From Akkermansiaceae bacterium (GTDB lineage Bacteria > Verrucomicrobiota > Verrucomicrobiia > Verrucomicrobiales > Akkermansiaceae), in the NCBI GenBank assembly GCA_012032235.1, contig JAAURL010000002.1:1-37131 (forward strand): 37,131 nt of DNA. Reading direction: 5' to 3'. Below the pieces are notes generated by a model. That model searched no databases and had not been told where the DNA came from. It saw nothing but the letters and a program-made list of their open reading frames with translations. A program made the translations under genes and the position numbers. Within the stretch, counting starts at the first letter, position 1; every line of letters begins with the position of its first letter. Positions 1,707 to 34,533 of this stretch are shown piece by piece.

Positions 1707-2630
1707 GTGCAATACAACGTTTTCTCATCGGTGAAGTCGCAAGCTACTAGATATTCAGGCTTACTGCCGCAGAAAGGCTGGCCTGCACGGAATCTCCGCT
1801 TTTTAAGACACCGCATCGTGCCGGGGATGTTTCGGCGGCTCGATGGCGATGTTCTAGAGCCCATTCTCTCGCCTCCAGATTCTGGTAAAGTCCGGATCAC
1901 CTGGATCGGCCACGCTTCCTTTTTCCTCCAATTTGCCGGCCACGCAGTCATCGTAGACCCGAACTGGGCAAAGTGGCATGGCCCCGTGAAACGTCAGCGC
2001 CAGCCAGGGCTGAATTTGCACGGCGTGCCAGAGGTAGACCTCGTGCTAGTCACCCATGCGCATTTTGATCATTTGCATAAACCGAGTTTAAAAATTCTCA
2101 AAGCCCGCGAAGGCATCGTCGTCCCAAAAGGCAGCCGCTCATTGGTCAAACGCTTAGGATTTCCCGCCATACACGAGGTGGAAATTTGGGACTCGTTGAG
2201 CTTTGATCAGCTAGAAGTGATTCATACGCCTTCGCACCATTGGGGCGCTAGATTTATCCATGATACCCATCGTGACTACGGCGGTTACATCGTCCGCACT
2301 GGTGGAAAGAGCGTTTTTCATTGCGGCGATAGTGCCTATTTCGACGGATTCAAAGAAATCGGGAAGCGCTATGAAATCGACATCGCCCTCATGCCCATCG
2401 GTGCCTATGAATCACCCAGCGGCCGGGACGTGCACATGAATCCAGAAGAAGCCGTGAGAGCGTTCGTAGATCTCGGTGCGAAGTTGCTGATTCCCATGCA
2501 TTACGGAACTTTTCCCTTAGGAAATGAGCCACACCATGAACCTGTCGAGCGACTATTGATGGAAGCCGACCGACTCGGCATCAGCGAACAAATACTGATC
2601 CCAGAAGAAGGCGTGGGCATCGAATGGTGA
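1707..2630 (+). CDS. MBL-fold metallo-hydrolase (UlaG/NAPE-PLD-like)
   Basis: WIGHASFFLQFAG, VTHAHFDHLHKPSL metal-binding motif, HCGDSAYFDGFKEIG, MHYGTFPLG. Confidence 0.88.
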   Translation: MQYNVFSSVKSQATRYSGLLPQKGWPARNLRFLRHRIVPGMFRRLDGDVLEPILSPPDSGKVRITWIGHASFFLQFAGHAVIVDPNWAKWHGPVKRQRQPGLNLHGVPEVDLVLVTHAHFDHLHKPSLKILKAREGIVVPKGSRSLVKRLGFPAIHEVEIWDSLSFDQLEVIHTPSHHWGARFIHDTHRDYGGYIVRTGGKSVFHCGDSAYFDGFKEIGKRYEIDIALMPIGAYESPSGRDVHMNPEEAVRAFVDLGAKLLIPMHYGTFPLGNEPHHEPVERLLMEADRLGISEQILIPEEGVGIEW

Positions 2631-2666
2631 TGGATCCTTTCGCAATCCGATGAACTCACCTATCGG

Positions 2667-2691
2667 GGAGCGCACGCTTCCAGCGTGCTCC
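2667..2691. repeat. Imperfect palindrome GGAGCGCACGCTTCCAGCGTGCTCC followed by TTTT; possible terminator or REP-like hairpin
   Basis: Inverted repeat read directly, 37 bp after the MBL stop codon. Confidence 0.5.
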
Positions 2692-2759
2692 TTTTCGTAT
2701 CCCTGCGGAAGGGTTTTGAAAAGCCCCCGCGTAGCGCAAATTCTCTCTCCAAAAACCTA

Positions 2760-3101
2760 AGTGGACTTGTTAGTGACGGGGCGGGATTCCACAACCGTCA
2801 GCCCTTGACAGCAGAAAAGATGTTAGGAAACGATCTTCCTGAAAACATTCGCATCATCACCCTGCCGCCATACAGTCCTGAACTCAATCCTGTGGAGGAA
2901 CTTTGGAATGTGATGAAAGACAGCCTGTGCAACAAAATATTCGGCACGCTTGAGCAGATCGAGGAAACGATCACGACGTTCCTGTCGAGCTATTGGCAGG
3001 ATGCGCGCAAGGTTCTCTCTTTAGTTGGCTGCAAACGCTTGACGATCAAGCATCGGTCGCTTGCTCCCCCTGAGCAAAGGCACAAGCAAAAATTTGTATA
3101 A
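2760..3101 (+). pseudogene. IS630-family transposase (DDE_3) C-terminal remnant
   Basis: VSDGAGFHNRQ...ENIRIITLPPYSPELNPVEELWNVMKD; first catalytic Asp region absent. Confidence 0.8.
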
Positions 3102-3162: not shown

Positions 3163-4446
3163 ATTGGAGCAGATCTCCATCAAGCAGTACCCATGACCCG
3201 ACTTGATCCGCAATATCGGATCGTTTTTGATGATACGCACTCTTCTCGTCCGGTGCACCTAGACGCCACTGCAGACATTGCCAAGATGGAGGAAGAAATC
3301 GCGAGGATTTCGCCAGAAGATGCGCTAGGTTTTCGACGATTTATGGAAGAAAATCGTGCTAAAATGCAAGCCTTCAAAAGCACGATGGAATCGCCATTTT
3401 CCGGCTGGGGAGATGTCCTGACGCCCAGTATGCTCGGGCTATTACCGCATCTCAATCCGCACCTAGATCTGGACAGTTATCTAAAGCGTTTTTTCAAAGA
3501 TCCACGCGTCCGCACGGCTTTTTGCTTCCAGTCGAAATACTTAGGTATGTCGCCTTTCCGCTGCCCTAGCCTATTTTCGATTCTCTCATTTCTGGAGTAT
3601 GAATACGGCGTTTTTCATCCCACAGGTGGTTGTGCCTCGGTAACCACTGCTCTGGCAAATCTAGCACGATCACTGGGGGTCGAAATTTGTTTAAATGAGG
3701 CCGTCACAGGGATGAACTTTGAGAAATCCAGAGTCACTGGAGTCACTACCGCTCAAAAGCACTACCGTGCAGATGCCGTGGTCATGAATGCAGACTTTGC
3801 ACGCGGCATCCAACGCTTTGTGCCAAATGCTCTGCGGCCGCGCTGGACAGATGAAAAGCTAACTCAAAAGAAATTCTCATGCTCCACTTTGATGCTCTAT
3901 CTCGGCCTAGATGGCACATTTCCAGGACTGTCCCACCACACCATCCGCATCGCCTCCAATTACGAAGAAAACTTGCGCGAGATCGATTCTCATCAAGACC
4001 CAGGCATGGATCCATCTTTCTATATTCAGAATGCCTGCAACACAGATTCCACTTTGGCACCGCCAGGGAAATCCACACTTTATCTGCTAGCTCCTGTCTC
4101 AAATCAGCTCGCTGGCACAGATTGGAAAACCGAAGCTCCGCGAATGAGAAAATTGCTCCTTGAGAAAGCTGCTGCTCTTGGCTTTGAAGATCTTCCACAG
4201 CGTATCGAATTTGAAAAAATACTAACACCTGATGATTGGGAAACTGAGCACGAGATCCATCTGGGCGCTACGTTTAATCTGGCCCACACTCTTCCCCAGA
4301 TGCTACATCTCCGTCCGCAAAATCGCTTCCAAGGCATCCCCGGACTATACCTAACAGGAGGCGGAACTCATCCCGGCAGCGGCCTGCCCGTCATCTTTGA
4401 GTCCGCCCGCATCACGACTCGATTATTGTTAGAGGATCTGGCTTGA
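3163..4446 (+). pseudogene. Phytoene desaturase/carotenoid isomerase-like oxidoreductase (CrtI family), N-terminal FAD domain missing
   Basis: In-frame from about 3163: IGADLHQAVPMTRLDPQYRIVF; C-terminus IPGLYLTGGGTHPGSGLPVIFESARITTRLL. No GxGxxG dinucleotide fold upstream; an in-frame stop lies at 3142-3144. Confidence 0.75.
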
Positions 4447-4534
4447 TCTCAGCAGAGCCAAACTTTCACACGGCGGTTTTTTTCCGTGTCTATACATTTT
4501 GTCTGACAAACTGAAATGATCTAATGACACAAGG

Positions 4535-4550
4535 CGGTCAGAAATGACCG
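4535..4550. repeat. Hairpin CGGTCA-GAAA-TGACCG
   Basis: Perfect 6-bp inverted repeat. Confidence 0.5.
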
Positions 4551-4788
4551 TTACGCGATTCGCATTGCACTGGATGAGTCGATAAGAATTTGGCCTTTCT
4601 GTTAATACTGACGAAGAAGTCAGAGCGAGAAATGCAGATGATAAACCGCAAGCCATGCTATGACCTTTGAGGTGTTGCCAGATTCTTTCGATAGGATTGA
4701 AGTTTGGGCTGTAGGGCGGAAGATAGACTGGCTCAATGTGATGCCAGACACGGCGACCGATTTGCTTTACCTCATCGACAACAGGCAA
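4540..4788 (-). pseudogene. IS630-family transposase (DDE_3) C-terminal remnant, different copy from the one at 2760
   Basis: PVVDEVKQIGRRVWHHIEPVYLPPYSPNFNPIERIWQHLKGH. Confidence 0.75.
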
Positions 4789-5008
4789 TCGCGACCCTTA
4801 GCTCTTGGGTGGAGCAGGTTTCAGAGTTGGGGTAATAACATTTGCGACCTATGCACGATCAAGATAGGTGTTCAAAAAAATACAAAATTCAGTTTTTACG
4901 CACGGACTTTTGGCAAGCGGTCTGCAAACGGTCTAAATCCGGAGTGCCAGAAAACTTCTTCGACATTTTTGTCCTTTTTGCAGAGCTTCATTCGTCGTTT
5001 CCATGAAA

Positions 5009-5061: not shown

Positions 5062-5592
5062 ATGATCAAGCCAGCGCTCCTATTTTCTCTCACCATCCTT
5101 GCGATACTGCCCGCTTGCCAGCCTGGAATCCACAGCTCTTCGGCCTGTGCGGAAATGCCACCCTACCGAGGATCGGCAGCTTTCGAGCGGATGAAATCTC
5201 TCACCGGAAAATGGTCAGCCGTTTCTCCCATAATGGGAAAAATGCACACCGAATTTCGCGTCATCGCCGGCGGTTCAGTGGTGGAGGAACGTTTCGCCTA
5301 CGGCACGCCGATGGAAATGTTAAGCACCTACTACGATGTGAACGGCAAGCTGATGATGACCCATTATTGCATGTTGCGAAACCAGCCGCGCATGAAGCTC
5401 ACCAAGAGCACGGCAGACTCGCTGACCTTTGATTTCGTGCCCACGCCCGGCCTGAACCCTGCGAAGGACAAACACATGCGCGGAGCCACCTACACCTTCA
5501 TTGATGCCGATCATTTCAAACTCGAAGGCGTAGCCTGGGAAAATGGCAAAGCCTCCAACTGTGGCCCTCCAGTCATTTTCACCCGCAAGTGA
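5062..5592 (+). CDS. DUF1579-type lipoprotein
   Basis: MIKPALLFSLTILAILPACQ lipobox; FERMKSLTGKWSA, VVEERFAYGTPMEMLSTYYDVNGKLMMTHYC. Internal start of the 4660..5592 ORF chosen. Confidence 0.75.
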   Translation: MIKPALLFSLTILAILPACQPGIHSSSACAEMPPYRGSAAFERMKSLTGKWSAVSPIMGKMHTEFRVIAGGSVVEERFAYGTPMEMLSTYYDVNGKLMMTHYCMLRNQPRMKLTKSTADSLTFDFVPTPGLNPAKDKHMRGATYTFIDADHFKLEGVAWENGKASNCGPPVIFTRK

Positions 5593-5619
5593 CTTATTTC
5601 ACCATTCACTTGGCAAACC

Positions 5620-6186
5620 ATGGTCAAAAAAATTCTCATCGGCTTCGCACTCTTCGTGGTCACCGCCATCGGTGGCATCGTAGGCATCGCCTTGCTCAAG
5701 TCTCCAAACTACCGCGTGGAGCGCAGCCTTGTGATCGCCGCACCGCCGGAGAAACTCTTCCCTTACGTCGATAACCACAAAAAATTCAACGAATGGAATC
5801 CATGGTCCAAAATGGATCCCTCGGCGAAGAACAGCTACTCTGGCCCAGAGTCTGGCCTCGGCGCAGTGGCGAGTTGGGAAGGCAAACTAACAGGAAAAGG
5901 CTCCGCCACCATTACTGAAAGCAGGCCCTACGAACTCATCCGCCAGCGCATGGAGTGGAAAGAGCCGATGGTAGGTATCAGCACCGTTGAATTCACATTT
6001 AAACCGGAAACGACAGGAAAAACCCGCGTGACATGGACCATGTTTGGCACCAACGAAAGCCTACTTTCTAAAGTGATGAGCCTCTTCATGGACTGCGAAG
6101 CAATGTGTGGCCCTGAATTTGAAAAGGGCCTCGCCGATCTCGCCACACTTGCCACCACGCCCACCACGCCCACCACGCATCGCTAA
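5620..6186 (+). CDS. SRPBCC family (polyketide cyclase-like) membrane-anchored protein
   Basis: N-terminal TM segment then YRVERSLVIAAPPEKLFPYVDNHKKFNEWNPWSKMDPSAKNSYSGPESGLGAVASWEG. Confidence 0.85.
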   Translation: MVKKILIGFALFVVTAIGGIVGIALLKSPNYRVERSLVIAAPPEKLFPYVDNHKKFNEWNPWSKMDPSAKNSYSGPESGLGAVASWEGKLTGKGSATITESRPYELIRQRMEWKEPMVGISTVEFTFKPETTGKTRVTWTMFGTNESLLSKVMSLFMDCEAMCGPEFEKGLADLATLATTPTTPTTHR

Positions 6187-6191
6187 AACCC

Positions 6192-6608
6192 ATGACGGCC
6201 AATCCACAACAAAGCACTGGCGAGCACCTGCTCTTCATTCGCGGCACGCACTGGAATAACAGCCTCTCGCCTACCGAGCTCCAGAGCATCATGGTGGATT
6301 TTTACGGCTGGGTAGAGGGCCTTCAAAGCCAAGGCATCCTGCTTGGTGCCCAGCCGCTGCTGGAGGCGGGCAAGTTGGTGAGTGGCCCGCAATGTCTCGT
6401 GACAGATGGCGTTTTTGCTGAGTCTAAAGAAGCCATCGCGGGTTATTTCCTGCTTGCCGTAAATTCATTGGAAGAGGCTGTGCGCTTTGCCCAACAATGC
6501 CCAATCCTCAGCTACGGCGCACAGATCGAAGTCCGCCCCATCGCCGATTTCTGCCGTCCGATGGCAGAAGTGAACGCATTTCAAATCCTCCAACCTACCT
6601 CACCATGA
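6192..6608 (+). CDS. YCII-related (DGPF-type) domain protein
   Basis: Short alpha/beta protein with VTDGVFAESKEAIAGYFLLAVNSLEEAVRFAQQCP, a variant of the DGPF signature. Confidence 0.75.
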   Translation: MTANPQQSTGEHLLFIRGTHWNNSLSPTELQSIMVDFYGWVEGLQSQGILLGAQPLLEAGKLVSGPQCLVTDGVFAESKEAIAGYFLLAVNSLEEAVRFAQQCPILSYGAQIEVRPIADFCRPMAEVNAFQILQPTSP

Positions 6609-6976
6609 ATCTACCCGGAACCTACATCGACGGCTTCTTGCTACCCATTCCCACGGCCAAGTTAGAAGAATATCACCTGCTCGCAGAACAGGCCGCTGCC
6701 ATCTGGAAAGAACACGGTGCCCTCCATTACGTGGAAGCCGCCGCCGACGATCTGAGCACGGAGTTTTGCCGCTCGTTCGCCGCCACTGCAGATGCGAGCG
6801 ACGATGAAACCGTCATTTTCGCGTTTGCCATCTTTGCAGACCGTGCCGCACGCGATGCCGCAAACTCCAAGATCATGGCCGACGAACGCCTGCAAGCCAT
6901 CTGTCCTGCCAGTGCCAACATCTTCGACTGCAAACGCATGGCTTTTGGTGGCTTCAAAACCATCGTCACCGCATAA
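6605..6976 (+). CDS. DUF1428 family protein
   Basis: YIDGFLLPIPTAKLEEYHLLAEQAAAIWKEHGALHYVEAAADD; ATGA overlap with the upstream YCII stop. Confidence 0.85.
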   Translation: MNLPGTYIDGFLLPIPTAKLEEYHLLAEQAAAIWKEHGALHYVEAAADDLSTEFCRSFAATADASDDETVIFAFAIFADRAARDAANSKIMADERLQAICPASANIFDCKRMAFGGFKTIVTA

Positions 6977-7005
6977 ATTCTACCCCCTAAAAAACACACC
7001 TCCTT

Positions 7006-7398
7006 ATGAACAACACCCGCAATCCCATCGGCTGGTTTGAAATTTATGTAGCAGACATGCCCCGCGCCAAAGCCTTTTACGAGACCGTCTTTCAAACCAC
7101 CCTCCAGCCCCTCGCCAGCCCCGCTTCCGTCGGACCCGAGCTGGAAATGTGGCAATTCCCCGGCGACATGATGGCCCCAGGGTGCGGCGGCACGATCTGC
7201 AAGATGGACGGCTGTGCCCCGGGTGCAGGAGGCACTTTGATTTACTTTACTTGCGCAGACTGCACGGTAGAGGAAAGCCGTGTCGCCGCCGCAGGCGGGC
7301 ATATCGTCCGCCCCAAGTTCAGCATCGGCGATTATGGCTACATCGCATTACTCATCGATACGGAGGGCAACATGATCGGCCTGCACTCATTGGTTTAA
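7006..7398 (+). CDS. VOC (glyoxalase/bleomycin resistance-like) family protein
   Basis: NPIGWFEIYVADMPRAKAFYETVFQTTLQPL...IALLIDTEGNMIGLHS. Confidence 0.9.
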   Translation: MNNTRNPIGWFEIYVADMPRAKAFYETVFQTTLQPLASPASVGPELEMWQFPGDMMAPGCGGTICKMDGCAPGAGGTLIYFTCADCTVEESRVAAAGGHIVRPKFSIGDYGYIALLIDTEGNMIGLHSLV

Positions 7399-7428
7399 CC
7401 GCAATCACCACCCGAGTAATTCTCGACC

Positions 7429-7881
7429 ATGGACACCCACACCATCCGCCTTCATCGAGTCATTAAGGCGAAACCGGAGTTGGTTTACAAAGCCTTCATC
7501 GATCCAGACGCGTTGGCTCGCTGGCTTCCGCCAGACGGCTACCTCTGCAAAATTTTTCACCTCGAAGCGAAGGTAGGCGGCAGCTTCAAAATGGCTTTCA
7601 TTCAGTTTAATAATGGGCAGAGCCACGCCTTCGGTGGTGATTATCTGGAATTGGTCCCCAATGAACGCCTCCGCTACACAGATGTCTTCGACGATCCTAC
7701 GATGCCGGGCATCATCGAGGTGACAGTCGAGTTGAAAGCCGTCTCATGCGGCACGGATCTTCGCGTCACCCAAGAAGGGGTGCCGGGCATGATCCCCGAA
7801 GAAGCTTGCTATCTCGGTTGGCAAGATTCGCTACGGCATCTCGCCCACCTCGTCGAATCCGGCCAGCCGGATGAGCCGTGA
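7429..7881 (+). CDS. SRPBCC/AHSA1 (Aha1 homology domain-like) protein
   Basis: HRVIKAKPELVYKAFIDPDALARWLPPDGYLCKIFHLEAKVGGSFKMAF...CYLGWQDSLRHLAHLVE. Confidence 0.9.
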   Translation: MDTHTIRLHRVIKAKPELVYKAFIDPDALARWLPPDGYLCKIFHLEAKVGGSFKMAFIQFNNGQSHAFGGDYLELVPNERLRYTDVFDDPTMPGIIEVTVELKAVSCGTDLRVTQEGVPGMIPEEACYLGWQDSLRHLAHLVESGQPDEP

Positions 7882-7884
7882 TCC

Positions 7885-9134
7885 ATGCCCGAGCAAAAGA
7901 CAGCCCAGCTTGCCGAAGACCTCTTCCGTCGGGAAGCCGCGCAGATCGTGGCGACACTCACGGCGCAGCTTGGCACGCACCGCCTGGAACTCGCAGAAGA
8001 TGCGGTGCAGGAGTCACTCGTCCGTGCCTTGCAAACTTGGCCTTACCGCGGCATCCCGCAAAATCCTGCGGCGTGGCTCACCAAAACCGCTAAAAACTTC
8101 GCCCTGGATGCCCTGCGGCGTGAGCAAAATTGGCAGCACAAAGAAACCCAAATCACCACCGAGCAAGAACGCTGGCTCACTCAGGAAAATGAATCTACGA
8201 ACGAGGGAAACTTCGCCGATAGCACCCTGCGCTTAATCTTCGTTTGCATCCACCCGCAGCTTGCAATCGAGGCACAACTCGCGCTCGCGTTACGCATCGT
8301 TTGCGGGCTGAGTCCGGCAGAGATCGCAGCGGCATTTCTCACCCGTGAAGCGGCCATTTCAAAACGCCTCGTGCGCGCCCGCCAGCAAATCCGGGAGCTG
8401 CGCTTGCCCTTTGCCATGCCGGATAAAAGTGAGCTGACCGAACGCCTCGATGGGGTGCTGGCCACCTTGTATTTGCTTTTCAATGAAGGCTACAAAGCCT
8501 CGGCAGGGAGCCGCCTCATCCGTGAGGAATTATGCCACGAAGCCATCCGCCTCACACAGCTTCTGTGCGAGCATCCTGCCACCGCCCAGCCCCGCGCACT
8601 GGCTGCCCTCGCCTGATGTGTCTCAATGCCTCGCGGCTGCAAGCTCGTGTGAACACCCAGGGCGAAATGGTCCGCCTCCAAGATCAAGACCGCCGCCTCT
8701 GGGATGCCGCTCTGATCGCTCGCGGCATCCAAGCACTCGGCGCGGCATCCGTCGGTGAGTGCATCAGCAGCTACCACTTGGAAGCTGGAATCGCTGCCTG
8801 CCATTGCCTCGCCGCCGATGATGCAAGCACCGATTGGCAACAGATTCTAAATCTTTACGAGGCGTTGAGCCTTCTCAAGCCCTCGCCTATCGTAGCGATG
8901 AATCGCAGCGTGGCGGTGGCACGCATCCATGGCCCTCGAGCGGGCTTGGAAGCGTTGGAAAAAATCCCTGATCGGAAATCGCTCGAAACTCAGCATCTTT
9001 ACCATGCCATCCGTGCGAGCTTCATCGCAAAACTCTGTAACCCTGCCGAAGCGCGGGCAGCTTACCAACTCGCCGCTACGCTGGCGAAGTGCGAGGTCGA
9101 GCGAGATTTCCTGCAGGCCGAGGCAGAGTGCTAG
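7885..9134 (+). CDS. ECF RNA polymerase sigma factor with C-terminal extension (ECF42/DUF6596-like); apparent frameshift at ~8612
   Basis: LAEDAVQESLVRALQTWPYRGIPQNPAAWLTKTAKNFALDALRRE; LFNEGYKASAG; second ORF continues LMCLNASRLQARV...LYEALSLLKPSPIVAMNRSVAVARIHGPRAGLEALE. GCCTGATG to GCCCTGATG restores one frame. Confidence 0.88.
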
Positions 9135-9329: not shown

Positions 9330-9735
9330 AACTCTTCTCTCCGACGTCCGCTTCATTGAGGCAACACGGGCAGTGAGATAAATCAAATTTACCCAAAGTT
9401 TTTTGCCTTTCTTGGTTTTATAACATAACAACAGCGGTCTCCTTTTGTTAAAATCTACTGTTGTCTTCTTCGTGAGATTCACAACCTCAGTCATCTATTC
9501 CTAATGACGATAGACTGAATTATCAGGATTCTGTTAAGTCGTTTACCAAAAGCTCGTGCGTTCAAAAGTGAGTTTTAAATTTATACTTTTTCTGAACATC
9601 TGGTTGATTGAGGCATCGGTCGTATGCGTCATTTCTCGCAACAAAAAATTGAAATCGAGCTTTTGAATTCAATGGAATTCCTTGACCAACACCACGTGGC
9701 ACGATGCGATCTAATTTTGATCGTTGCCCAAATTC

Positions 9736-10773
9736 ATGCGTGATTTTCTCCCAACTGACCGACCTGCATTGGTGCTTGCCCCGATGCAGGATGTCACCGA
9801 TTTGCCATTTATGCGGATCATCGCGCGTCGTGGTGCGCCGGATTGGTTCGTCACCGAGTATTTTCGTGTGTATCCAGATTCTTGCCTGAATCGCTACATC
9901 CTACGTTCCATTTCAGAAAATGAAACCGGGCGTCCGATTTTCGCACAATGATCGGACGCGATTTGCCGAGCCTGATTCACACTGCTAATGAGTTAGCGAA
10001 ATTTCCCATCGCGGGCATCGATCTGAACTTAGGATGCCCGGCGCCCATTGTGTGCCGAAAAGATGCGGGAGGAGGACTGCTGCGAAATCCCGAGACCGTC
10101 AATCGTCTCATCGGCTCATTGCGTGAAGCAATTTCAGGGAGATTCACGGTAAAAACACGTCTCGGTTACCACTCAGAAAATGAATTTCCTAAGCTGTTAG
10201 AAATTTTCCGCAGCCACGCGATTGATGGACTTACCATTCATGGTCGCACGGTGTTGGAGCGCTATCAGACTCCTGTGCATCCAGATTTTGTGAAAATGGC
10301 AGTAGAAACGATGGCATGTCCGGTCATCGCGAATGGCAATGTCATCGATGTGGAAACAGGCCTAGCTTACTTTGCTAAAACTGCGGCAGCTGGCCTGATG
10401 ATCGGCCGCGGCGCAATCCGGAATCCATGGATTTTTCACAGCTAATCGCTGCTTTTCTATCAAAAGAATCATTCCAGCCAACCTATCGCGATCTGTGGGA
10501 ATACGTGTTAGAACTTTATGATGAGATCGCCCGCGAGACTCCGAAATTTAATCCACTCTCCCATGTGCAGAGGATGAAAAAACGCTCGCCTACATCAGCC
10601 ATGGATTGGAAGGAGAGTTTGAATTCGATATGCGCCGCGCCAAAACGCCGGAAGATTTCACTAGCATTTGCAGTAAGCATCTGGATCATCACGCGCTACT
10701 TCCGTCTAAGCCACCGTTAGGCTCCAAGTTGTTTTGTGGCTTTGAAACGTTGAGTCAGTCCTTATCGATTTAA
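9736..10773 (+). CDS. dus: tRNA-dihydrouridine synthase (Dus), three apparent homopolymer frameshifts
   Basis: LVLAPMQDVTDLPFMRII / MIGRDLPSLIHTANELAKFPIAGIDLNLGCPAPIVCRKDAGGGLLRNP...TVKTRLGY...LTIHGRTVLERYQTPVHP...PVIANGNV...GLMIGRGAIRNPWIF / SQLIAAF / KTLAYISHGLEGEFEFDMRRAKTPEDF. Breaks at A2 9947, T5 10432, A6 10577. Confidence 0.9.
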
Positions 10774-18713: not shown

Positions 18714-19931
18714 ATGGAGCTTGAGGTCAAATGGGCGGGAGCGGGAGAAGCCACCGTCGGGAGGCTTTACCAAGATCTGCGCGGTGTGATTTATTTCGAG
18801 TATGATGCGAAATGGCGCAGCGCCGCACGGGAGCTCTCTCCCATTTATCTGCCGAATTCCACCCGCGGTGCGGTGAGCACGCCCACACCTAGCTTTGGCG
18901 CGCTGCACGGACTTTTCCAAGACGTGCTCCCGGATTGGTGGGGAGAGCGGCTGATGCAAAGGCACTTCGAGGCGCGAGAAATTCCGTGGAGCCGCGTGAC
19001 GAGCCTGCAAAAGCTGGCCTGCCAAGGAAACCAAAAAATGGGAGCACTGGCCTTTTCTCCCGTGATGGATGAAATGGATTTCCAAGATGGCATGGTAGCG
19101 GAGTTAGGAGAATTGGTGGAAGCTGCCCGCGTCGCCCTGCGAGGAGAAGCCGGCGAAGTCCTAAAATCCCTCCTCAAAAGCGGCATGTCTCCCGGCGGCG
19201 CCCAGCCGAAAGCCCTCCTCGCCATTTCCGAAGATTTTTCTGAACTCCGTGTCGTTGATCCTGCGCCTACCGGTTACGGTTCCTGGTTGATCAAATTCGA
19301 TACCGAACCTGTCCTAGAAGAAGGCCGCATCGAAGCAGCCTATGCTGACATGGCCCGCGCCGCTGGAATCACCGTCCCGGAAACCCGTCTATTAGAGGCC
19401 GCAGGCGGCTGTCATTTTCTAAGCCGTCGTTTTGATCGCACTGCATCGGGAGAGCGGCTCCATCTACATTCGTATTCTGGCCTTACACAAACCGCCCTGC
19501 GCGATGGGCTTGATTACGCAGATCTGATCGAAACTGCCCGCTCCCTCACCGCGGACAATCGCTGTGTAGAGGAAATTTTCCGGCGTGCCGTCTTCAACGT
19601 CATTGCCGCAAATGACGACGACCACGGGAGAAATCACGCCTTCCTGATGGACGCTGCAGGAAATTGGAAACTCGCTCCAGCTTTCGATCTCACCTTGGCC
19701 ACTTATCCTCTCGCATCCGGTTTCCGTGCCGCCCGCGTCAACCGAAAAGCCGCCCACATCACACGTCAGGATTTCATCAAACTCGCTAAAGACCATGACG
19801 TCCGAAACGCGAAAGCCCACATCGACCACGTCGTCGATGCCATTGCCCATTGGTCAGAACACGCGAAAGCGAACGGCATTTCCCTCACCCAATCTTCCAT
19901 CGTCGAATCACAGCATCTGCGTGGATTTTGA
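18714..19931 (+). CDS. hipA: HipA-family serine/threonine kinase toxin
   Basis: VGRLYQDLRGVIYFEYDAKW, LPDWWGERLM, SGMSPGGAQPKALLAI, CHFLSRRFDR, NDDDHGRNHAFLM, WKLAPAFDLT. Confidence 0.93.
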   Translation: MELEVKWAGAGEATVGRLYQDLRGVIYFEYDAKWRSAARELSPIYLPNSTRGAVSTPTPSFGALHGLFQDVLPDWWGERLMQRHFEAREIPWSRVTSLQKLACQGNQKMGALAFSPVMDEMDFQDGMVAELGELVEAARVALRGEAGEVLKSLLKSGMSPGGAQPKALLAISEDFSELRVVDPAPTGYGSWLIKFDTEPVLEEGRIEAAYADMARAAGITVPETRLLEAAGGCHFLSRRFDRTASGERLHLHSYSGLTQTALRDGLDYADLIETARSLTADNRCVEEIFRRAVFNVIAANDDDHGRNHAFLMDAAGNWKLAPAFDLTLATYPLASGFRAARVNRKAAHITRQDFIKLAKDHDVRNAKAHIDHVVDAIAHWSEHAKANGISLTQSSIVESQHLRGF

Positions 19932-21449: not shown

Positions 21450-24400
21450 ATGAAAACAAAACTTTGCATCCTCGTGATGTCTTTGGCTACTGCGGTAGCC
21501 GTTTCCGCAGCCCCTCGCCTCGTTGTTTCCACTCCATCGCTCATTCCAGAATCCCAGATCGATCTTGTTTTCGATTCGCCAGTCGTGCCAACAACGGAAC
21601 TCGGAAAAACAGTCGATAATACTTGGTTAGAAATCAAGCCTGCCATTCCCGGGAAACTCATCTGGAAAGCACAAAATATCGCACAATTTATTCCGGCGCA
21701 AGTTCCTAACATTTCTACAAGCTATCAGTTTTCGATTCCCAGCGGACGAAAGCACCTCGATCAATCGCCTATTCCTGCAAAAGCGATTGAAACTTTAGAA
21801 ACAGATGAATTTAAAATCATCACGGCAACCTCACCGAATCGCTATTCTAACGAATACGTTCCCGCCACAGGACAATGGGTCATCGCCTTTAATGATGCTG
21901 TCGATCCCACAGCTGCCGCAGGCTTCATCTCGTTCGGCTCAAAGCAAGGCCAACGCGTCGCCGCAAAGCTAGAGCACGCCACAATCGCCAGCTCATCCTA
22001 TCTCAGCAATTATAAGCCATGGTCAGAAAGATTTCCTAACATAGTAGTTCCGGAGAAAACGCCAGCCAGCATCGCTACGAACATCATCATCGCCACACCG
22101 ATTTCACCTCTGCCTGTTGGCGATGAATGGTCCATTTCCTTGTTAGCCGGTTTACCTAACACATCGAGCACAGCACGCACAAAATCCGACAGCAATTACA
22201 GCATCGGGAAGATTGAACCTTTAAGATCTTAAAAATTGAGCCGCTCGTTGAGGTCGATCAACCTCGTAAAATCACCTTATCATTCAATCAACCTTTACCT
22301 GACCCACTACCGACAGCATCTCATTGAAAATGTCTCTCCATCAATCCCAGACGTGGAAGGCGTAACCGCAACAGTAAGCGGTTCACAAATCTACCTAGCT
22401 GGTAATTTCACCAAGACAAATGACTATCAGGTGAATTTCTTTTCCCCCATTCAGTCTAGAGCTGGGCTTCAACTAAGTAATGTTCTGAACCAAGAAATCA
22501 AATTCAAACATCTCGATCCAGAGCTTACACTTCCTTCACAAGACGAAGCGCAACTCGCCAATGGCAAGCGCACTTACCGCATCCAAACCGTCAACCTCGC
22601 GAAGCTACATATCCGCATCAAAAAACTAACAGGAAATGACCTGATCCGAGCTTACCAAGGCTATCGAAATTACACAGGGAGCGGCCATGACGGAAAAGAA
22701 ATCACTCCAACGGCCCCGCTCCCCTATTCGCTTTTAAATGGAGAAACGTTTTTTGAAAAAGACATCGAGTTAGGAAATCCCATCGACACATCGAAGGAAG
22801 TCGCGCTCAACTGGGATGAAATTTTGCCAAAAGATCTGCGCAACACTTCGATCTTTATTGATATCACTGGAGACTATAACGGAAAAGAAGGAAAACATAG
22901 CGCCCAAGCACTTTTACAGCTCACCGACATCGGCCTAGCGTGGAAAATCACGTCTGAGAATGCATTCATCTACGCCTTTTCCTGTGATAGCGGCGCTCCG
23001 CTACCGGATGTAAAATTACAATTCATCGGCGAGGATAATACTGCGCTCCAATCCACCACCACTGACGCATCTGGCATCGCAACGATTTCCCGCGCAGATT
23101 CCATTCGCCATCTCTACGCCTCATTGGGAAATGATAGCTACCTAACAGCTTTCGACTCGGCCATTGACACGGTCAATCTCTGGCGCTTCCCGGTCCACTA
23201 CTCATCGGGATCAGCCGCTGCCGCCATTCGTAAGGCTTTTCTTTTCACCGACCGCTCACTTTATCGACCAGGTGAAACCGTTCGATTGAAAGGCATTGTC
23301 CGAAATCAGTTAGGAAATATCATCGAAGCTGCCGAGAGCAAACCTGCCCAAATCACATTTCTCGATCCAGCAGGTAATGAGGTCCACAACAGCGAAGTCA
23401 CATTTTCCCCGACTGGTTCGTTTGATCTCGCCTATAAGCTCCCTCCCGTCAGCACCGGCGTTTTCCGAATCCGCCTAGAATATCCAGAGGAAATCGAAAA
23501 GGCCGAAGCCATCCAAGACGATTGGCAAAAGCAGGACGAAATACTCGCCAGCGCGCTCTTTTCCCTATCAATCCAAGTCGAAGAATTCCGCCGGAATGCC
23601 TTTGAAGTCCAACAAACGATCCCAAAACCCGCTCCGGGATCATCCAGCATCGCTGTCGATCTGTTGGCGAAATACTATCAAGGCCAGCCTGTTGCGGCTG
23701 GCGAAGTGAAACACTTCACCAGAATCAGCTCAAAAAATCTTTATCCCGAACGCTTCCGGGATTTCCTGTTTGGCAATCACCGCTCAGACGATTGGGGCTA
23801 TTGGTATCACTACTTTGGCTACAGTGCCCGTGGTGATGAAGACGAAGGCGATGAAGAAGGTGGATATTCCAATAGCCCATCCACCCATGTGGAAGGCCAG
23901 GAAATCCTATCTCCAGATGGAACATCCGCGTTCGCTGTTCTAATCCCACAATCAGAGTTTCCGACAACCCAGCAAGTCGAAGTCACCTCTGAAGTGACGG
24001 ATGCGAACAACCAAACTCTAACAGCCACCACCAAAACGACCGTTCATCCGGCATCGGTCTACGTCGGCATTTCTAGAAATGATCGACTCGTCCGCGTCAA
24101 CGAAGCACTACCACTCAAAATCGTCGCTACTGATACCGAAGGAAATCCATTTCCCGGCTCGATCAAAGCCACCGCCACTCTCACTCGCGAGGTCAATTCA
24201 GCCGTGAAAACCATCAACAACGCGGGAGAAACCGCGACACGCAATGACGTCACCGAGGAAATCATTCAAACTTCGGAGATCATCATTGATCCCGCCGCCT
24301 CCACCGCACAAGGGATGGATTTCTCAGTGACTCCGACAGCCACAGGTCTGCATTATCTCACGATTCGCGGGACTGATCCAGAAGGCCGTCCATTTGCCAC

Positions 24401-27194
24401 AGTCAATCGCTTCCACGCCTACGGCACCGATGAATATCCATGGCTTTATGAAGATGGGATGCGCATCAAACTCATCGCTGAGAAAAAATCTTATAAAACC
24501 GGTGAAACTGCCCGTCTGTTAGTCCTCTCTCCCATCGAAGGCACTGCATTGGTCACCATCGAGCGGGAGAAAGTTCTGCGCTCATTCCTCGTTCCGCTAA
24601 AAGCTGACAAACCAATCATCGACATTCCTCTCACCGATGAAGACGCACCAAACGCTTTCGTTTCCGTCCTTGTTGTCAAAGGAGCAAAAGAATCTGCTAG
24701 GGACCACAAAGAGCCACAACTCCGTCTCGGCTATTGCGAACTGATCGTCGAAAATCAGCGTGATAATCTCGCGATTCAAATGGAGACCAATGCCCCATCG
24801 GTTCGTCCTGGAGACACCGTGACGCTCACGGGAAACATCACTCTTTCCAATGGCCAACCAGCAGCCGGAGCAGAAGTCACTTTCTACGCAGAAGACGAAG
24901 GCACATTGGCCATCATGGGCTACAAAACACCACAGCCGATGTCTTATTTCTACAAGCCTCGCGACCTAAAAGTCGAATCCGGAACCTCATTCCACTCCTT
25001 CATTTCAGAAGATCCAGAAAGTCAGAATTTTTACAACAAAGGATTCTTCATCGGTGGTGGCGGAGAAGAAATGGAACTCAGTAACCCGATCAGAGATAAC
25101 TTCGATCCCTGTGCGACTTGGGCACCTACACTCACCACAGATAGCACCGGGAAATTTACTCATACTTTCAAAACTCCAGACACGCTGACTCGCTATCGTC
25201 TTATCGCTATCGCTCACCATAACGCTGCTCGTTTCGGCCACGTGGAATCATCGCTCGTCGTAAAAAAAGAACTCATGTTAGAGCCGAAGTCTCCACGTTT
25301 CGCCAATCAGGGAGATACGTTCAACCCACAAGTCCTTGTCCAAAACGCCTCCGAATATACCGGAACATGGGAGATCAAATATAGCACTACAAATGGCAAA
25401 GAAACGCCAGCTGCCACACCGCTAGGTTCCACCACAGAAACCGTCACGCTCGCCCCCGGCAAGTCATCTGTCCTCGTTTTCCAAACGCGTGCAGAGACGA
25501 CTGGCGAAGCCGTTCTCACCTGGCAAGCCACACCCGTTTCCCTCAGCAGTGGAAATCTAACCCCTCAGCTCGCCCATCGCCTGTCCGATGCCGTGGAGTC
25601 TCGATTTGAAGTGCAATACCCAATGCCGCTGCTGCGTCAGTCAAAGCTAGTAACACTGAATACACCTAACAAAAACCAAAACCTACTCGATCAGATAGAC
25701 GATAAACTACTCACTGGGACCGGCGAAATTGAACTGGAGTTCGCCCGCTCGCCACTCGTTGAAGCCAGCGGAGCAATCGACTCATTGCTTCAATATCCCT
25801 ACGGCTGCGTCGAACAAACAACCTCTGCCTTGATCCCATGGCTCGCCGTGGAAGACCTCAGCTCCCTTGTTCCACGCTTCGCAAAAATCCAGCCAGAAAA
25901 AGTCACCGAAACGATTCAGGCGGGAGTCAATCGCTTGCTTTCAATGCAACTTCCCGATGGCTCCTTTGCCTATTGGCCAGGCGGCACCGATTCCGTACCG
26001 TGGGCTACCAGTTACGCCGGAATGGGATTAATCATCGCCGAAGAGAACGGCGCTCACGTCCCTGAATACGCGATTGAAAATTTATCCAAAAATCTCATCG
26101 AAAGCTTGCGCGGTCTAGCCAATGAAAAATCCGCCGCTGCATTGGAAATTCATGCACGCTCACTCTTGGTTCTTTCACTCGCAGGATCTCCGCAGCCAGC
26201 TTATTTAAATGCTTTGGCAGATCGGATCAAGGAGCTCACCCCCAGCGCCCGCAGCCTGTTAGCCACAGCCATTGCCACGATGGAAGATGCAGATGCACAA
26301 AAAATCGCTTTCGCAAAATCCATCCTAACATCACCAGTTCCATTCAAAAACAAAGATGACAGCTGGATGCCCTACTCTGCGGAGAGCGCCTATCAACTCA
26401 TCGCTTGGCTTGCAATCGAACCAGAAGGACCACAAGCGACTCAGATTCTCGATCGAATGCTTCGTGAGAGAAATCCTTACGGAGCATGGAACACTACTTG
26501 GGTCAATGGCTGGAGCCTCATCGCCATGAGCGACTACGCAAAACAACAATCGCTCGATGATGAACCCGTTTCACTCTCCTTGGAAACCAGCACTGGCACA
26601 GAAGCCATTTCTTTAAGCAAGGAAACGCCCACCGCCACTCGCTCATTCAAACTAACTCCCGAACTAAAACTCGCCATCAGTGCAGACCGCAAGGCCTGCG
26701 CCCGGATCAAGGTCGCCTCGAAACCAAAAATCGAACCCACGCAACCCGTCGCCAAAAACGGGCTTTCGATTGATCGGATTTACGAACGTGTAAATGGCAA
26801 TGGCTCCACAGAAATACTCACAGAGCCTAAAGTCGGCGATCTCATCCGCGTGTCACTCCGCGTCACTCTACCAAAAGACAACACCAAATACCTCGTCATC
26901 GACGATCCACTTCCCGCCTCCTTCGAGACCGTCAACAATGATTTTAAAACTCAACGCTCCGCAATCGCGGAAAACTCCAGCGAAAACGATTGGAACATCA
27001 GTCACTCCGAACTTCGTAGTGACCGCGCAGTCTTTTTCCTAGACGAAATCTGGCGTAAAGGAACCTACACCGTCACCTATCTCGCCCGCTGCACTCTAGC
27101 AGGCGAGGCCGTCGCTCCTCCGGCGAAAGTGGAATCCATGTATGATCCAGAAAACTTCGCCCTTTCGGCCTCAAGGCTTTTCACAGGGAAATAG
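21450..27194 (+). CDS. Bacterial alpha-2-macroglobulin family protein (thioester type); frame disturbed at ~22220-22320
   Basis: Signal peptide MKTKLCILVMSLATAVAVSAA; KAFLFTDRSLYRPGETVRLKGIVR; YPYGCVEQTTSALIPWL thioester; adding one T at 22220-22222 restores KIEPFKILKIEPLVEVDQPRKITLSFNQPLPDPLPT. Confidence 0.92.
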
Positions 27195-29779: not shown

Positions 29780-32418
29780 TTATTGAGTAATGGCAGGCAG
29801 CACACCGCCATCTCCTAATCCGCCGATTTCTGGATTACTATCGGGTGCCTTATCTGGTCCACGAAGCGGGCGGCCCGTTGCATCGATAATCTGCGCCGTG
29901 ACGAAGATGACCAAATTACTCTTAATCCTGTTTTCGCCCTTGGTCTGGAACAAGCGTCCAATCACAGGAATATCACCAAGAATCGGCACTTTATCTTCGA
30001 TGTTTTGCACATCTTCGCGCATCAAACCACCAACTGCCACAGTGTAACCATCATAGATCGTCAGTGAAGTCTTCACACGACGTGAGGAGAACACAGGCAT
30101 CTCAATACGGTTTTCGGTAATGACAGAAACCACAGGGTTTCCTAGAGCGTCTGTTGAAGGAGCTTGGATCGGGCTACCATAGTTGATGAAACCTTCGAAT
30201 TCGACGATTTCTGGCACGAAATCCAAATCAATCACGAAGTCATTGCTACCAATAGTAGGTTGAATTTCGAGAGTCACACCCGTGTTACGAGTCTCGAAGG
30301 CTGTAGGCGTAGCCGGGGTAACAGGGAATCCACCACCACCACCACCACCAATACCACCACCAAAGAGGCCACCAGTATTGTTGCCACCTGTGGACTGTGG
30401 GAGTTCCGGGGGTTCGTATTCAGTTGGATAGATAAATTCACGGATAATCTCGATGGTCGCTTTTTGACCAGACTTTGCCGTTACCGAAGGAGCAGTCATC
30501 AGATCTGTTCCTTTTTTCTGGGCTAGTCCACGCATGATGAGCTGGACTTGGCTATTTGAGAAAAAGCCTGTCAGGGCAGCAATACCGGGAGCCACATTCG
30601 CCGTTTGTGAATTCCGATTCGGGTTGTTCAAAATCGCATCAATATTGTTACGATTAATCGCTTGATCGCCGCTACGTAGACCATTTGTGACGAGATTGTC
30701 TGCGAATTGGCCAGAAGCCAGTGGAACTCCCGAAATGGTTGTGCCATTGACATTGCCAATCAGGTCGCTTCCGGTTCTGCCACCTTGGTTTCCTTGTGTT
30801 CCACCGCTGCCAAAGAGTGTTTGATTATTATTACCAAAGATATTGTTGGTAAGGTTAAAAGGACTAACTAACCAATCAAAGCCTAGCTCGTCGTTATTTT
30901 CCTGGGAGATTTCGATGAACTTGGTGGTGATTTTGACCTGCTTTGGCTTATCCTCATCTAGCGCCTGAATCAAGGCTTCAAGATTTTCGAGTTGCTCAGG
31001 AGTGTTATTTACTAAAAGGGCACCTGAACTGCTCAAAGTCGCAGAGCTGCCTGGAGCCGTGAAGGCGATACCAGCAGCCATCAGAAGATCCTTGATCGGC
31101 TTTCTGGCACCTAGCAGAGGTTTTGATTCTTGCTTGGCAAATGGATCTTCTGCGGCACCACCCGCTGCGGCAGCGCCTGAGTCCAGCTTGCTTTGAAAAT
31201 CCGGAGCTACCCGGAAAGTGCGCGAGAAGGTATCAGTTTCCTCTGCAGATAGAGGAACGAGAGTCACTGAGAAATTATCAATCTTAACTTTAAGCTTCGT
31301 CTGCTCACAGATGTATTGAAGCACCACTTCAAGTGGCAGATTCCGGCTGCGGAGATTGTTGATTCGAAGTGTGTTAGGATCCTGCGTTGGGGCAGCGATC
31401 GTGGCTGCGTCACCCTCAGCTGGAGCCACCTCCCCAATCGTAGCAGCTACCGTGTTGGCGCGAGCACGGCGAACATTGATATTTACACCTTTTCTCGCAG
31501 GATCAAGTTCTGTGGTATCGAGCTCAATGGAGCGTTGTCTGAGGAAGTCAATTGCTTCTTCAACCGTTGTATCCTCGAAATCGACACGTGGTATGATGAT
31601 TTCCTTGAGTTTTTGGTGATTTGAGCAATGCCAGTATCTTGATCTTGAGGTAAATTTCGATTATCTTCCCCTAAAACGTCATTTGAAGGTACTGAAATCT
31701 CCCATGCTTGATCGACTTGGCTGAGGAGCTCAGCACGCGTGTGGTCATACGCAGCGCGGTAGTAGTCCGATTTGGCGACTGAAACTCGCTCTAGCCCGCG
31801 ACGCGCTGCGGAGTTGTAGGGATCGACACGAAGCACGTTATTATACTCATTTTTTGCTTCGTTGTATTTGCCTAAGTTGTAGTTGCCTTCTGCGGTGTAG
31901 AGACCACGGCGGACTTTATCAACATTTTGAGTGTGTTCGTAAGTCAGTGCAGGATTGGTGCGGATCGGATCATCCAAATAGCCCATCTCGCGCTTGGCCT
32001 CGATGCTTTCTGGATCTTCTGCGAGAACCGCTTCCAGCAGCGTGCGCGCTTCTGCATATTTTCCAGTTTTACGGTGCTGGATCGCAAGGGCTACGCTAGC
32101 GTCGCTGAGATGCTCAACGTAGCTTTTGTGGCGATCCTCAAACATTGGAGTGTTCGGGACGCGATCAAGAGCTTGGCGATATTTATCAACGGCTTGTTGA
32201 TAGTCACCTTTGGCGTAAGCGGCACGACCTTCTATCAATAGGGCGTCTCCTTCAGTGACCGCATCTTGGCGGCGTAATAGTTCGCGTTGGGCGAGACTAC
32301 TGTAGCTACCGCCGCCTTCACCGGCCTGGACGTAAGAAATGGTGGCTGGCATGGAAGATGCCACCGCCATCAACGTGAGAGCGGTGCGACTGGATCGAGA
32401 CATGGGCGTTTTTTGCAT
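29780..32418 (-). CDS. Amuc_1098-like type IV pilus/type II secretion secretin with N-terminal TPRs; apparent frameshift at 31610-31614
   Basis: TPR-like region in 31483..32418; secretin region KVPILGDIPVIGRLFQTKGENRIKSNLVIFVTAQIID and TSLTIYDGYTVAVGGLM. Adding one base joins ORFs as GIAQITKKLKEIIIPRVDFEDTTVEEAIDFLRQRSIELDTTELDPARKGVNI. Confidence 0.92.
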
Positions 32419-32476
32419 AATGAACTGAGGTTTTCTGGCGGGGTTTTAGATGTTTGAAAAGTGTTTTTTTGGATAA

Positions 32477-33532
32477 TCATTCAGTAATAGCAGGCATTTG
32501 ACCTTTACCGATCTGGATCGACTGTTTTTCACCTGAAGGCGTCGTGTATTCGATAGTCACTGCCTCTGGAGTCACTTCTTTGGTGAAATAATCTTTCTTC
32601 TCGTTTTCTGGTGGAAGCGCGAATGAGGTTTTTTCCTCTACTTTGAATTCCTTGCCACTCATGCCTAGTGCTTCGAGTGAGAAGATCGCGGTGCGATCAA
32701 ATTTAAGATTTTCCTTGAAAAGTTGATCACTCAACGGAGCTTGGAATTCATAAAGAGTGCCTTTTTTGTTCGGTCTCTGATCTTCAATCACTGCGAAGGT
32801 GACGTCTGATTCGTATTTTAGCCTTTCATTCATGATTTTGCGGACCTCTGTTCTGAGGAACTTGAATCTGTCTTTGACTGGCGGTAGATCAAAGATGTTC
32901 TCACCGGGCATTACTTGCTTCGCGATGTCAGTTTTGATTTTCTGTGACTTGGAATTCTCATATCTGAAATCACATCCCTGTTCACTGGGGTAACCTGGGA
33001 CGATCACCCATGCCAAGCTCTCGTCTTTGATATATTTCAACTTTGCGATGAGTGATGGAATCGACTGCGGGTCGTTCGGATTCGACTTTGCTTTAAATTC
33101 TTCCATATTGGAGAATCCGTCTTTGTCAGGATCGCGAGTAGGAGAGTCTGCAAATCCAGGATCAAGGCGATTTTCGAGCCACCAAGTGTTAGGAATCGGG
33201 TCGTGAATCATTGGGCCTGTGATCGGATCCAATGGCTTATCGGGTGTAGCGCTAGGAACGAACAATGGCACACCTGTGAAAAGATCAACTGCCCGGCCTG
33301 TAGGCGTGACGCCTTGTTGCCAAGCACGGTCCACTTCTAGAGAAGCAATCGATTTAGGAACCAGCTCAGCACTAGCGACAGCTGTATTGTTATTGCCAGC
33401 GCCCTTAGGAGATGCACCAAAATCGTCATCCACTCCGTTTATTTTGGAAAATCCAAGATAAGCGAGGCCTAGCGCGACTGCTACTGCTCCCCCGAGGGTA
33501 GCTTTTTCATAATTTGTGGAAAACCAAGACAT
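32477..33532 (-). CDS. Amuc_1099-like pilus-system protein
   Basis: Position in locus; N-terminal TM (GGAVAVALGLAYLGF); DPDKDGFSNMEEF calcium-loop-like motif. Confidence 0.75.
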   Translation of the reverse strand: MSWFSTNYEKATLGGAVAVALGLAYLGFSKINGVDDDFGASPKGAGNNNTAVASAELVPKSIASLEVDRAWQQGVTPTGRAVDLFTGVPLFVPSATPDKPLDPITGPMIHDPIPNTWWLENRLDPGFADSPTRDPDKDGFSNMEEFKAKSNPNDPQSIPSLIAKLKYIKDESLAWVIVPGYPSEQGCDFRYENSKSQKIKTDIAKQVMPGENIFDLPPVKDRFKFLRTEVRKIMNERLKYESDVTFAVIEDQRPNKKGTLYEFQAPLSDQLFKENLKFDRTAIFSLEALGMSGKEFKVEEKTSFALPPENEKKDYFTKEVTPEAVTIEYTTPSGEKQSIQIGKGQMPAITE

Positions 33533-33558
33533 GGTCGGAAATTTTGCGGAAATTGGGT

Positions 33559-34506
33559 TTAAGGAAGTTTCTTCACAGGGAGAAATTGAACTAGATCCAG
33601 TCTGACAAAGACTTGGATTTTTTCACTTCCCAGCACTTGTGAAAGGATTTGACTACTATCTGTTGTTGCTGCGGCAGGATCAGCTCCAGCTGCTGGGGCT
33701 TCTTCACCGGGCAACAGGAAGTCACCTCCACCGCTATCACTGGAAGCATCTTCTGCCGGAGCGGCTGTTTCAAATTTTGCTTCGCTCAGATTCGGAGCCT
33801 GCTGCTTTTGATTCGTGAAGCGCGCTGAACGCACTACAAAATAGCCATTTTCTGTTTTTGAAATCGCGGTAAAAAAATTACGAACTGACTCCTCTGTCCC
33901 CAAGAAGCTGATTTCCATCGGGAACTCACGAGTGACTGTGGTGGCCGGATCGAATGACTGGCCTTCTTCTTCCAGCAGAGTGGCCCGATAGATATTTTTT
34001 AGTTCAGCTGGCTTTGCCGCAGCTAGTGCGAGCATCAGCTTTTTAACGGCATCCATCTGATAGTTCAGAATACCTGTTGTGGAAGCGGGAGCTAATGAGG
34101 TTTTGTATCTTTCAAAACCTAGGAAAAACTGCTCCGGCAAGGTCGCTCCAGCCGCTTCAAATGCTTGGCGAACTTCTGCATTTGCAGCCAAAAGACTATC
34201 AGCAAACGCCTGCGGTGTGACATCTTTGATTTCTTGTGGGCGGAACTTATCGAAAGTCGTTTGAAGTGATTCGACGGCTTTTTTATAATCTTCTAGGGCC
34301 TTATTTTTACCATCGCGATTTTCTTCGCTAGGATAAAGGGCGATTCCCTCGGCCGCTGATACCTCGGAAAGGCCCGCGTCGAACTTTTCTTTGGTCTTAT
34401 TGTAGTTACTAAGTCCTAGGTAGCCCGCCACGAATAGTAGAATAGTTCCCGCGAGAGTTCCGCCAGCTAACCCGGCGAGAAATTTGTTTTCTTTGATCCA
34501 ACTCAT
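33559..34506 (-). CDS. Amuc_1100-like pilus-system protein (PilO-like)
   Basis: MSWIKENKFLAGLAGGTLAG TM, coiled region, FPMEISFLGTEESVRNFFTAIS, IQVFVRLDLVQF C-terminus. Confidence 0.82.
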   Translation of the reverse strand: MSWIKENKFLAGLAGGTLAGTILLFVAGYLGLSNYNKTKEKFDAGLSEVSAAEGIALYPSEENRDGKNKALEDYKKAVESLQTTFDKFRPQEIKDVTPQAFADSLLAANAEVRQAFEAAGATLPEQFFLGFERYKTSLAPASTTGILNYQMDAVKKLMLALAAAKPAELKNIYRATLLEEEGQSFDPATTVTREFPMEISFLGTEESVRNFFTAISKTENGYFVVRSARFTNQKQQAPNLSEAKFETAAPAEDASSDSGGGDFLLPGEEAPAAGADPAAATTDSSQILSQVLGSEKIQVFVRLDLVQFLPVKKLP

Positions 34507-34533
34507 AATACAGGTGAAATAATTAATAATGGG

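Follow-up and report, generated by a model that had tools for sequence, protein, structure and literature searches.

A predicted self-activating ECF42-type sigma factor operon of an Akkermansiaceae bacterium, with a TGTCCT promoter variant

Extracytoplasmic function (ECF) sigma factors of the ECF42 kind are widespread, and the signal to which they respond and the job they perform are poorly known. Sven_0747 of Streptomyces venezuelae, ECF-10 of Pseudomonas putida and RpoE10 of Sinorhizobium meliloti have a sigma2–sigma4 core with a long, TPR-like extension and an adjoining YCII gene, have no classical anti-sigma factor, and act on TGTC ... CGTC promoters with 19-base spacing, the targets being glyoxalase-like and hydrophobic-ligand-fold proteins. 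For RpoE10, the promoter is TGTCGG ... CGTC, and glyoxalase-like and hydrophobic-ligand genes are activated (PMC6180224). The C-terminal extension of ECF42 sigma factors is reported to be essential, with the YCII protein as its proposed partner (PMC8999054), and sigma factors with a DUF6596 domain are known across bacteria (PMC11119718). Here we describe a block of seven genes in 37,131 nt of contig JAAURL010000002.1 (assembly GCA_012032235.1, Akkermansiaceae bacterium); this whole stretch is referred to as the window, and coordinates are counted from its position 1. We consider it likely that these seven genes form an ECF42 operon that activates itself and is expressed as one message with positive feedback, controlled through the extension of its sigma factor, and with an output directed at small compounds.

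All seven genes lie on the forward strand, in the order lipoprotein, SRPBCC, YCII, DUF1428, VOC, AHSA1 and ECF sigma factor (Table 1), with intergenic spacings of 27, 5, -4, 29, 30 and 3 bases. The tight packing claimed in a preliminary description of this DNA, including the ATGA overlap and the 7881/7885 junction, is borne out by the sequence and by Pfam, and six of the family names given there can be kept. The seventh, DUF1579 (PF07617) for the gene at 5062–5592, has been dropped, because Pfam gave no credible match and a profile comparison with DUF1579 proteins gave none. The DGVF motif, which was described as a variant of the DGPF signature, is present and is the usual form in the orthologue group of this YCII protein. 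Comparative synteny, one of the checks proposed earlier, revealed the same gene order in several genomes of three families, which makes the block more than a chance arrangement. Among the relatives' loci compared, the order is complete in G123 and G126, lacks DUF1428 in G105 and G031 of the same genus, has added genes in G109, and is partial in G129. Together with the spacing and a single predicted promoter, the conserved order supports the one transcript that had been proposed. Sigma-70 promoters and terminators within the block showed no excess over shuffled sequence.

The sigma factor core consists of PF04542 and PF08281 only, i.e., regions 2 and 4 with no region 3 according to Pfam. In intact relatives, the counterpart of the ECF42 extension of about 200 TPR-rich residues is DUF6596 followed by TPR-like helices, which in the window lie in a second reading frame. 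The earlier ECF42-like label agrees with this extension, with the YCII neighbour and with the promoter motif described below, and the filing of the window sigma factor under ECF42 rests on its intact orthologous copies. A Pfam and NCBIfam scan of the proteins revealed no classical anti-sigma factor, as the preliminary description had also noted.

The pattern TGTC-N19-CGTC has a single match in the window, on the correct strand at 4970–4996 and 65 bases upstream of the ATG at 5062, precisely the region in which a promoter search had been suggested. Compared with the ECF42 promoter TGTCG[A/G] ... CGTC, this site agrees in TGTC, CGTC and spacing, and has CT at positions 5–6. The DUF6596 sigma factors of the relatives form three groups, with the window sigma factor in a clade of 35 members (clade A, support 100/100), and relatives yield the clade consensus TGTCCT-N15-TTCGTC. 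This motif was counted over 146 genomes, split by the presence of a DUF6596 sigma factor, with the reversed pattern as control and the sums made by hand. In the 38 genomes that have such a sigma factor there are 100 sites against 19 for the control, and in the 108 genomes that do not, 22 against 23. At position 21 of the motif, which the search left free, 87 of 91 sites have A or G. The first gene downstream of a site belongs to one of 12 families of small proteins, including YCII, AHSA1, VOC, DUF899 and SRPBCC, in 76 of 91 cases, which is an upper figure given that this very set of sites supplied 7 of the 12 query families, and to the window's own families in 40 of 91, which is the strict one; in genomes without the sigma factor, none of 11 first genes falls within the 12 families. 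For families beyond those of the window, the assignments were confirmed with representative members: DUF899, PhnB-type, VOC, DUF1579, GFA, GyrI-like and SnoaL. Taken together, the motif upstream of 5062, its enrichment tied to the presence of the sigma factor, and the target families point to an ECF42 operon, which is probably self-activated. What the sequences show directly is the families, the gene order, the recurrence of the block in relatives, and a motif linked to the presence of the sigma factor.

Because many motif sites in the relatives are far from any sigma factor gene, the regulon appears to be dispersed in these genomes. YCII and AHSA1 genes are found behind a TGTCCT promoter, far from any sigma factor gene, at loci L154, L161, L162, L164, L171 and L184. 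A genome-wide search, also proposed earlier, was successful as regards the exact site in front of this operon, but did not extend the regulon in the window's own genome, where no gene of these families lies behind the one-mismatch sites on other contigs. A one-mismatch site at 6902–6928, inside the DUF1428 gene, was taken as chance. No description of the TGTCCT variant was found in the literature searched, the scope of which excluded the papers defining ECF42 (J Bacteriol 2018, Mol Microbiol 2019) and the ECF reclassification, where it may be recorded.

Several points weigh against a self-activating operon, in addition to the partial overlap of query families and sites mentioned above. In the window's own genome, the clade consensus is matched exactly only at 4970–4996, and the reversed control likewise has one match, which leaves no enrichment, so the case for the promoter rests on its position and on the relatives. 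In S. meliloti, no activation of its own YCII–sigma operon by the ECF42 sigma factor was detectable (PMC6180224), and feedback in the present locus is predicted because of the position of the motif. The sigma factor frame is broken in this assembly, and as to expression and binding the self-activating operon is a prediction from sequence.

In the mechanism that we propose, the sigma factor would bind RNA polymerase and recognise TGTCCT-N15-TTCGTC at 4970–4996, and the resulting single transcript would encode the six small proteins as well as the sigma factor itself, closing a positive feedback loop. The DUF6596/TPR-like extension would set the activity, probably by contacting a partner, and the literature favours the YCII protein in that role. 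The outputs would be the small pocket proteins (SRPBCC/AHSA1, VOC, YCII, DUF1428 and the lipoprotein barrel), whose probable function is the binding or detoxification of small compounds that are reactive or hydrophobic.

The long C-terminal extension of the sigma factor noted in the preliminary description is present, but not in a single frame, the break being hinted at there only by the word "repaired". The frame stops at 8614–8616, within TGATG, and resumes from 8616 in another frame to 9134, which splits DUF6596. A single continuous protein is thus not encoded in this assembly, whereas it is in nearly all relatives: of 60 sigma factor copies from 37 relatives, none is broken at this point, two have an early stop close to the N-terminus, and one, from G072, is broken further downstream. 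The intact sigma factor of the nearest relative, G109, was modelled with a mean predicted local distance difference test (pLDDT) score of 92.9 and has an all-helical extension with TPR proteins as nearest folds; in this model, the break maps to the middle of helix 236–249 in the C-terminal domain. No natural YCII–sigma fusion that might have hinted at contact between the two was found among the relatives, and a frame of 588 residues at L082 is a mere upstream extension of the open frame.

Sequencing or assembly error, with an intact sigma factor and a working operon in the strain, is the explanation of the break towards which we lean, at little better than even chances. A -1 shift brings the protein into gap-free alignment with its relatives, as the loss of one base would lead one to expect, and 172 codons remain open after the break. 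Differences from G109 at codon positions 1/2/3 are 0.20/0.10/0.51 before the break and 0.24/0.13/0.64 after it, so that both halves show protein-like constraint and the break is either recent or an assembly error. Both breaks in the neighbouring dus gene are likewise of the -1 type, and the 2.9-Mb genome is a draft, 85% complete in 272 contigs. On the other hand, IS630-type remnants close by indicate real decay, and error has to be judged from one assembly only.

A genuine and recent break, which would have turned the sigma factor gene of this lineage into a pseudogene and deprived the operon of its switch, is a serious possibility, if somewhat short of an even chance. Such a break would delete the extension reported to be essential, the crtI-like gene nearby is truncated beside an IS630-type remnant, dus is spread over three frames, and the genome is smaller than those of most sigma-bearing relatives. 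Furthermore, G072, a genome from the same genus, carries a distantly related DUF6596 paralogue of another clade (L100:7571-8661) with a -1 type break approximately 15 residues further downstream, which may be a coincidence or a recurrent loss of the extension. The constraint still visible on both halves argues against a pseudogene, however, and several -1 breaks on one contig are also compatible with base errors. The switch would still work in this strain if the break is an error, and would be lost if it is decay; the single assembly fits both. It is very improbable that the sigma factor is naturally made as two proteins, by stop–start coupling at TGATG or programmed frameshifting: TGATG is a typical reinitiation signal, both halves are conserved and the G072 paralogue breaks nearby, but none of the relatives has a split here, the cut interrupts both a domain and a predicted helix, and no slippery sequence is evident by eye.

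The product of the first gene has a lipobox cysteine at residue 19 that is invariant in seven homologues, and was modelled with moderate confidence (pLDDT 76) as a ten-stranded barrel. Among solved structures, the closest in fold are polyketide spirocyclases, RsfG (the anti-sigma factor of ECF56), and nitrobindin; a sequence search found no solved homologue. The lipoprotein is rare, with matches in 5 of 388 genomes sampled across the phylum. RsfG, by which SigG1 is bound and restrained (PMC7730460), is among the best fold matches (E 1.2e-4, template modelling (TM) score 0.52–0.60), yet it is hardly credible that the lipoprotein regulates the sigma factor in this manner instead of being an output protein, since the spirocyclases are better matches, the lipoprotein is missing from most clade-A operons, and the invariant lipobox implies export, whereas the sigma factor is cytoplasmic.

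Residue 160, in the recognition helix, is Lys in all 35 clade A sigma factors and Gln in all 23 others. In our own alignment, its counterpart in E. coli sigma E is S172, a residue in contact with the -35 element (PMC6713349). At loci from many phyla, Lys is accompanied by TGTCC in 39 of 39 assignable cases, and Gln by TGTCG in 18 and TGTCC in 4; across all sigma factor columns, mutual information with base 5 is highest for residue 160. Shared ancestry accounts for much of this correlation: there are about four changes on the tree, and one pair on well-supported branches, which is too few for significance. Several relatives of the window have both sigma types together. The chances seem to us evenly balanced that ECF42 sigma factors are of two promoter-specificity types, set mainly by one residue (TGTCG for Gln160, TGTCC for Lys160), so that two insulated regulons with overlapping gene families coexist within a cell of such relatives. 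Actinobacterial DUF6596 sigma factors at L241, L248 and L254 have Lys160 and TGTCCA or TGTCCT promoters, and are possible independent switches of specificity.

Table 1. Coordinates of the predicted promoter and the genes of the block within the window.
Feature	Position	Strand	Basis
Predicted ECF42-type promoter TGTCCT-N15-TTCGTC	4970..4996	+	Motif search
Small lipoprotein, predicted calycin-like beta-barrel	5062..5592	+	Lipobox and structure model; no Pfam family
SRPBCC (Polyketide_cyc2) protein	5620..6186	+	PF10604, 3.3e-11
YCII/DGPF protein, signature DGVF	6192..6608	+	PF03795, 8.4e-10; solved relative 1s7i (PA1349)
DUF1428 protein, ATGA overlap with YCII (6605-6608)	6605..6976	+	PF07237, 3.9e-32; solved relative 2okq (YbaA)
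VOC (glyoxalase/bleomycin-resistance fold) protein	7006..7398	+	PF00903, 2.4e-4; solved relative 3oxh (Rv0577)
AHSA1-type SRPBCC protein	7429..7881	+	PF08327, 2.4e-29; solved relative 1z94, E 8.7e-59
ECF sigma regions 2 and 4, first half of DUF6596, Lys160 in recognition helix	7885..8616	+	PF04542, PF08281, PF20239 positions 1-57
TGATG, -1 type frame break within DUF6596	8614..8618	+	Sequence; relatives read through
Second half of DUF6596 and TPR-like extension, other frame	8616..9134	+	PF20239 positions 58-101

Upstream of the block, an IS630/DDE_3-type transposase remnant recognised by eye (2630–3100, forward strand) sits where the N-terminus of the crtI-like oxidoreductase gene (3193–4446) would be expected, and a second remnant (PF13358) lies at 4429–4788 on the reverse strand. 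Downstream, on the forward strand, are dus, for a tRNA-dihydrouridine synthase (9724–10720), a HipA-like protein found by eye (18714–19931), and a bacterial alpha-2-macroglobulin gene with an in-frame stop at 22230–22232, or two adjacent genes (21450–27194). A secretin/PilM/pilus-like gene block at 29780–36071 on the reverse strand resembles, by eye, an Akkermansia locus.

The clear promoter word and the dispersed regulon provide a list of output genes that can be searched for in genomes (YCII, AHSA1, VOC, DUF899, DUF1428, GFA and others), and ECF42 function can be tested in cultured relatives, the named relatives of the window sigma factor including Brevifollis and Prosthecobacter, which make a Verrucomicrobiales-type source of the window probable. 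Given the correlation at residue 160, promoter choice can be tested by exchanging a single residue, which would be useful for orthogonal sigma switches.

As for Sven_0747, ECF-10 and RpoE10, the window has all the properties listed for them at the outset, and the block shows the ECF42 features tested, except for the broken frame and a -35 element that differs at positions 5–6. Unlike in those systems, the sigma factor gene is the last of seven behind one predicted promoter, Lys160 replaces Gln in the recognition helix, and the frame is broken in this assembly; compared with RpoE10, the -35 element is TGTCCT and not TGTCGG. The small-protein set, which the preliminary description regarded as expanded, is indeed present, but is less unusual than was implied, since similar families adjoin ECF42-type sigma factors elsewhere. 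The Chroococcidiopsis thermalis plasmid locus NC_019699, with a DUF6596-type sigma factor, has small proteins of the same kinds in the order DUF1579, GFA, VOC, VOC, YciI, YciI, sigma, VOC, GFA, but the arrangement is divergent, the sigma factor is of the Gln type, and a lipoprotein of the window's type is absent. At the PA1349-type locus of Pseudomonas aeruginosa, YciI, a thioredoxin-family protein, an ECF42-type sigma factor, VOC and YciI occur together; here, both strands are used, around an MFS transporter, and the sigma factor is again of the Gln type. The YciI protein adjoining that sigma factor is PA1349 itself, the one solved relative (1s7i) of the window's YCII protein. ECF41 and ECF56 sigma factors also have a regulatory C-terminal extension, and the lipoprotein encoded first in the block is similar in fold to the RsfG barrel, but their extension is SnoaL_2 and not DUF6596/TPR. 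The block is thus a known kind of system with a variant promoter, TGTCCT.

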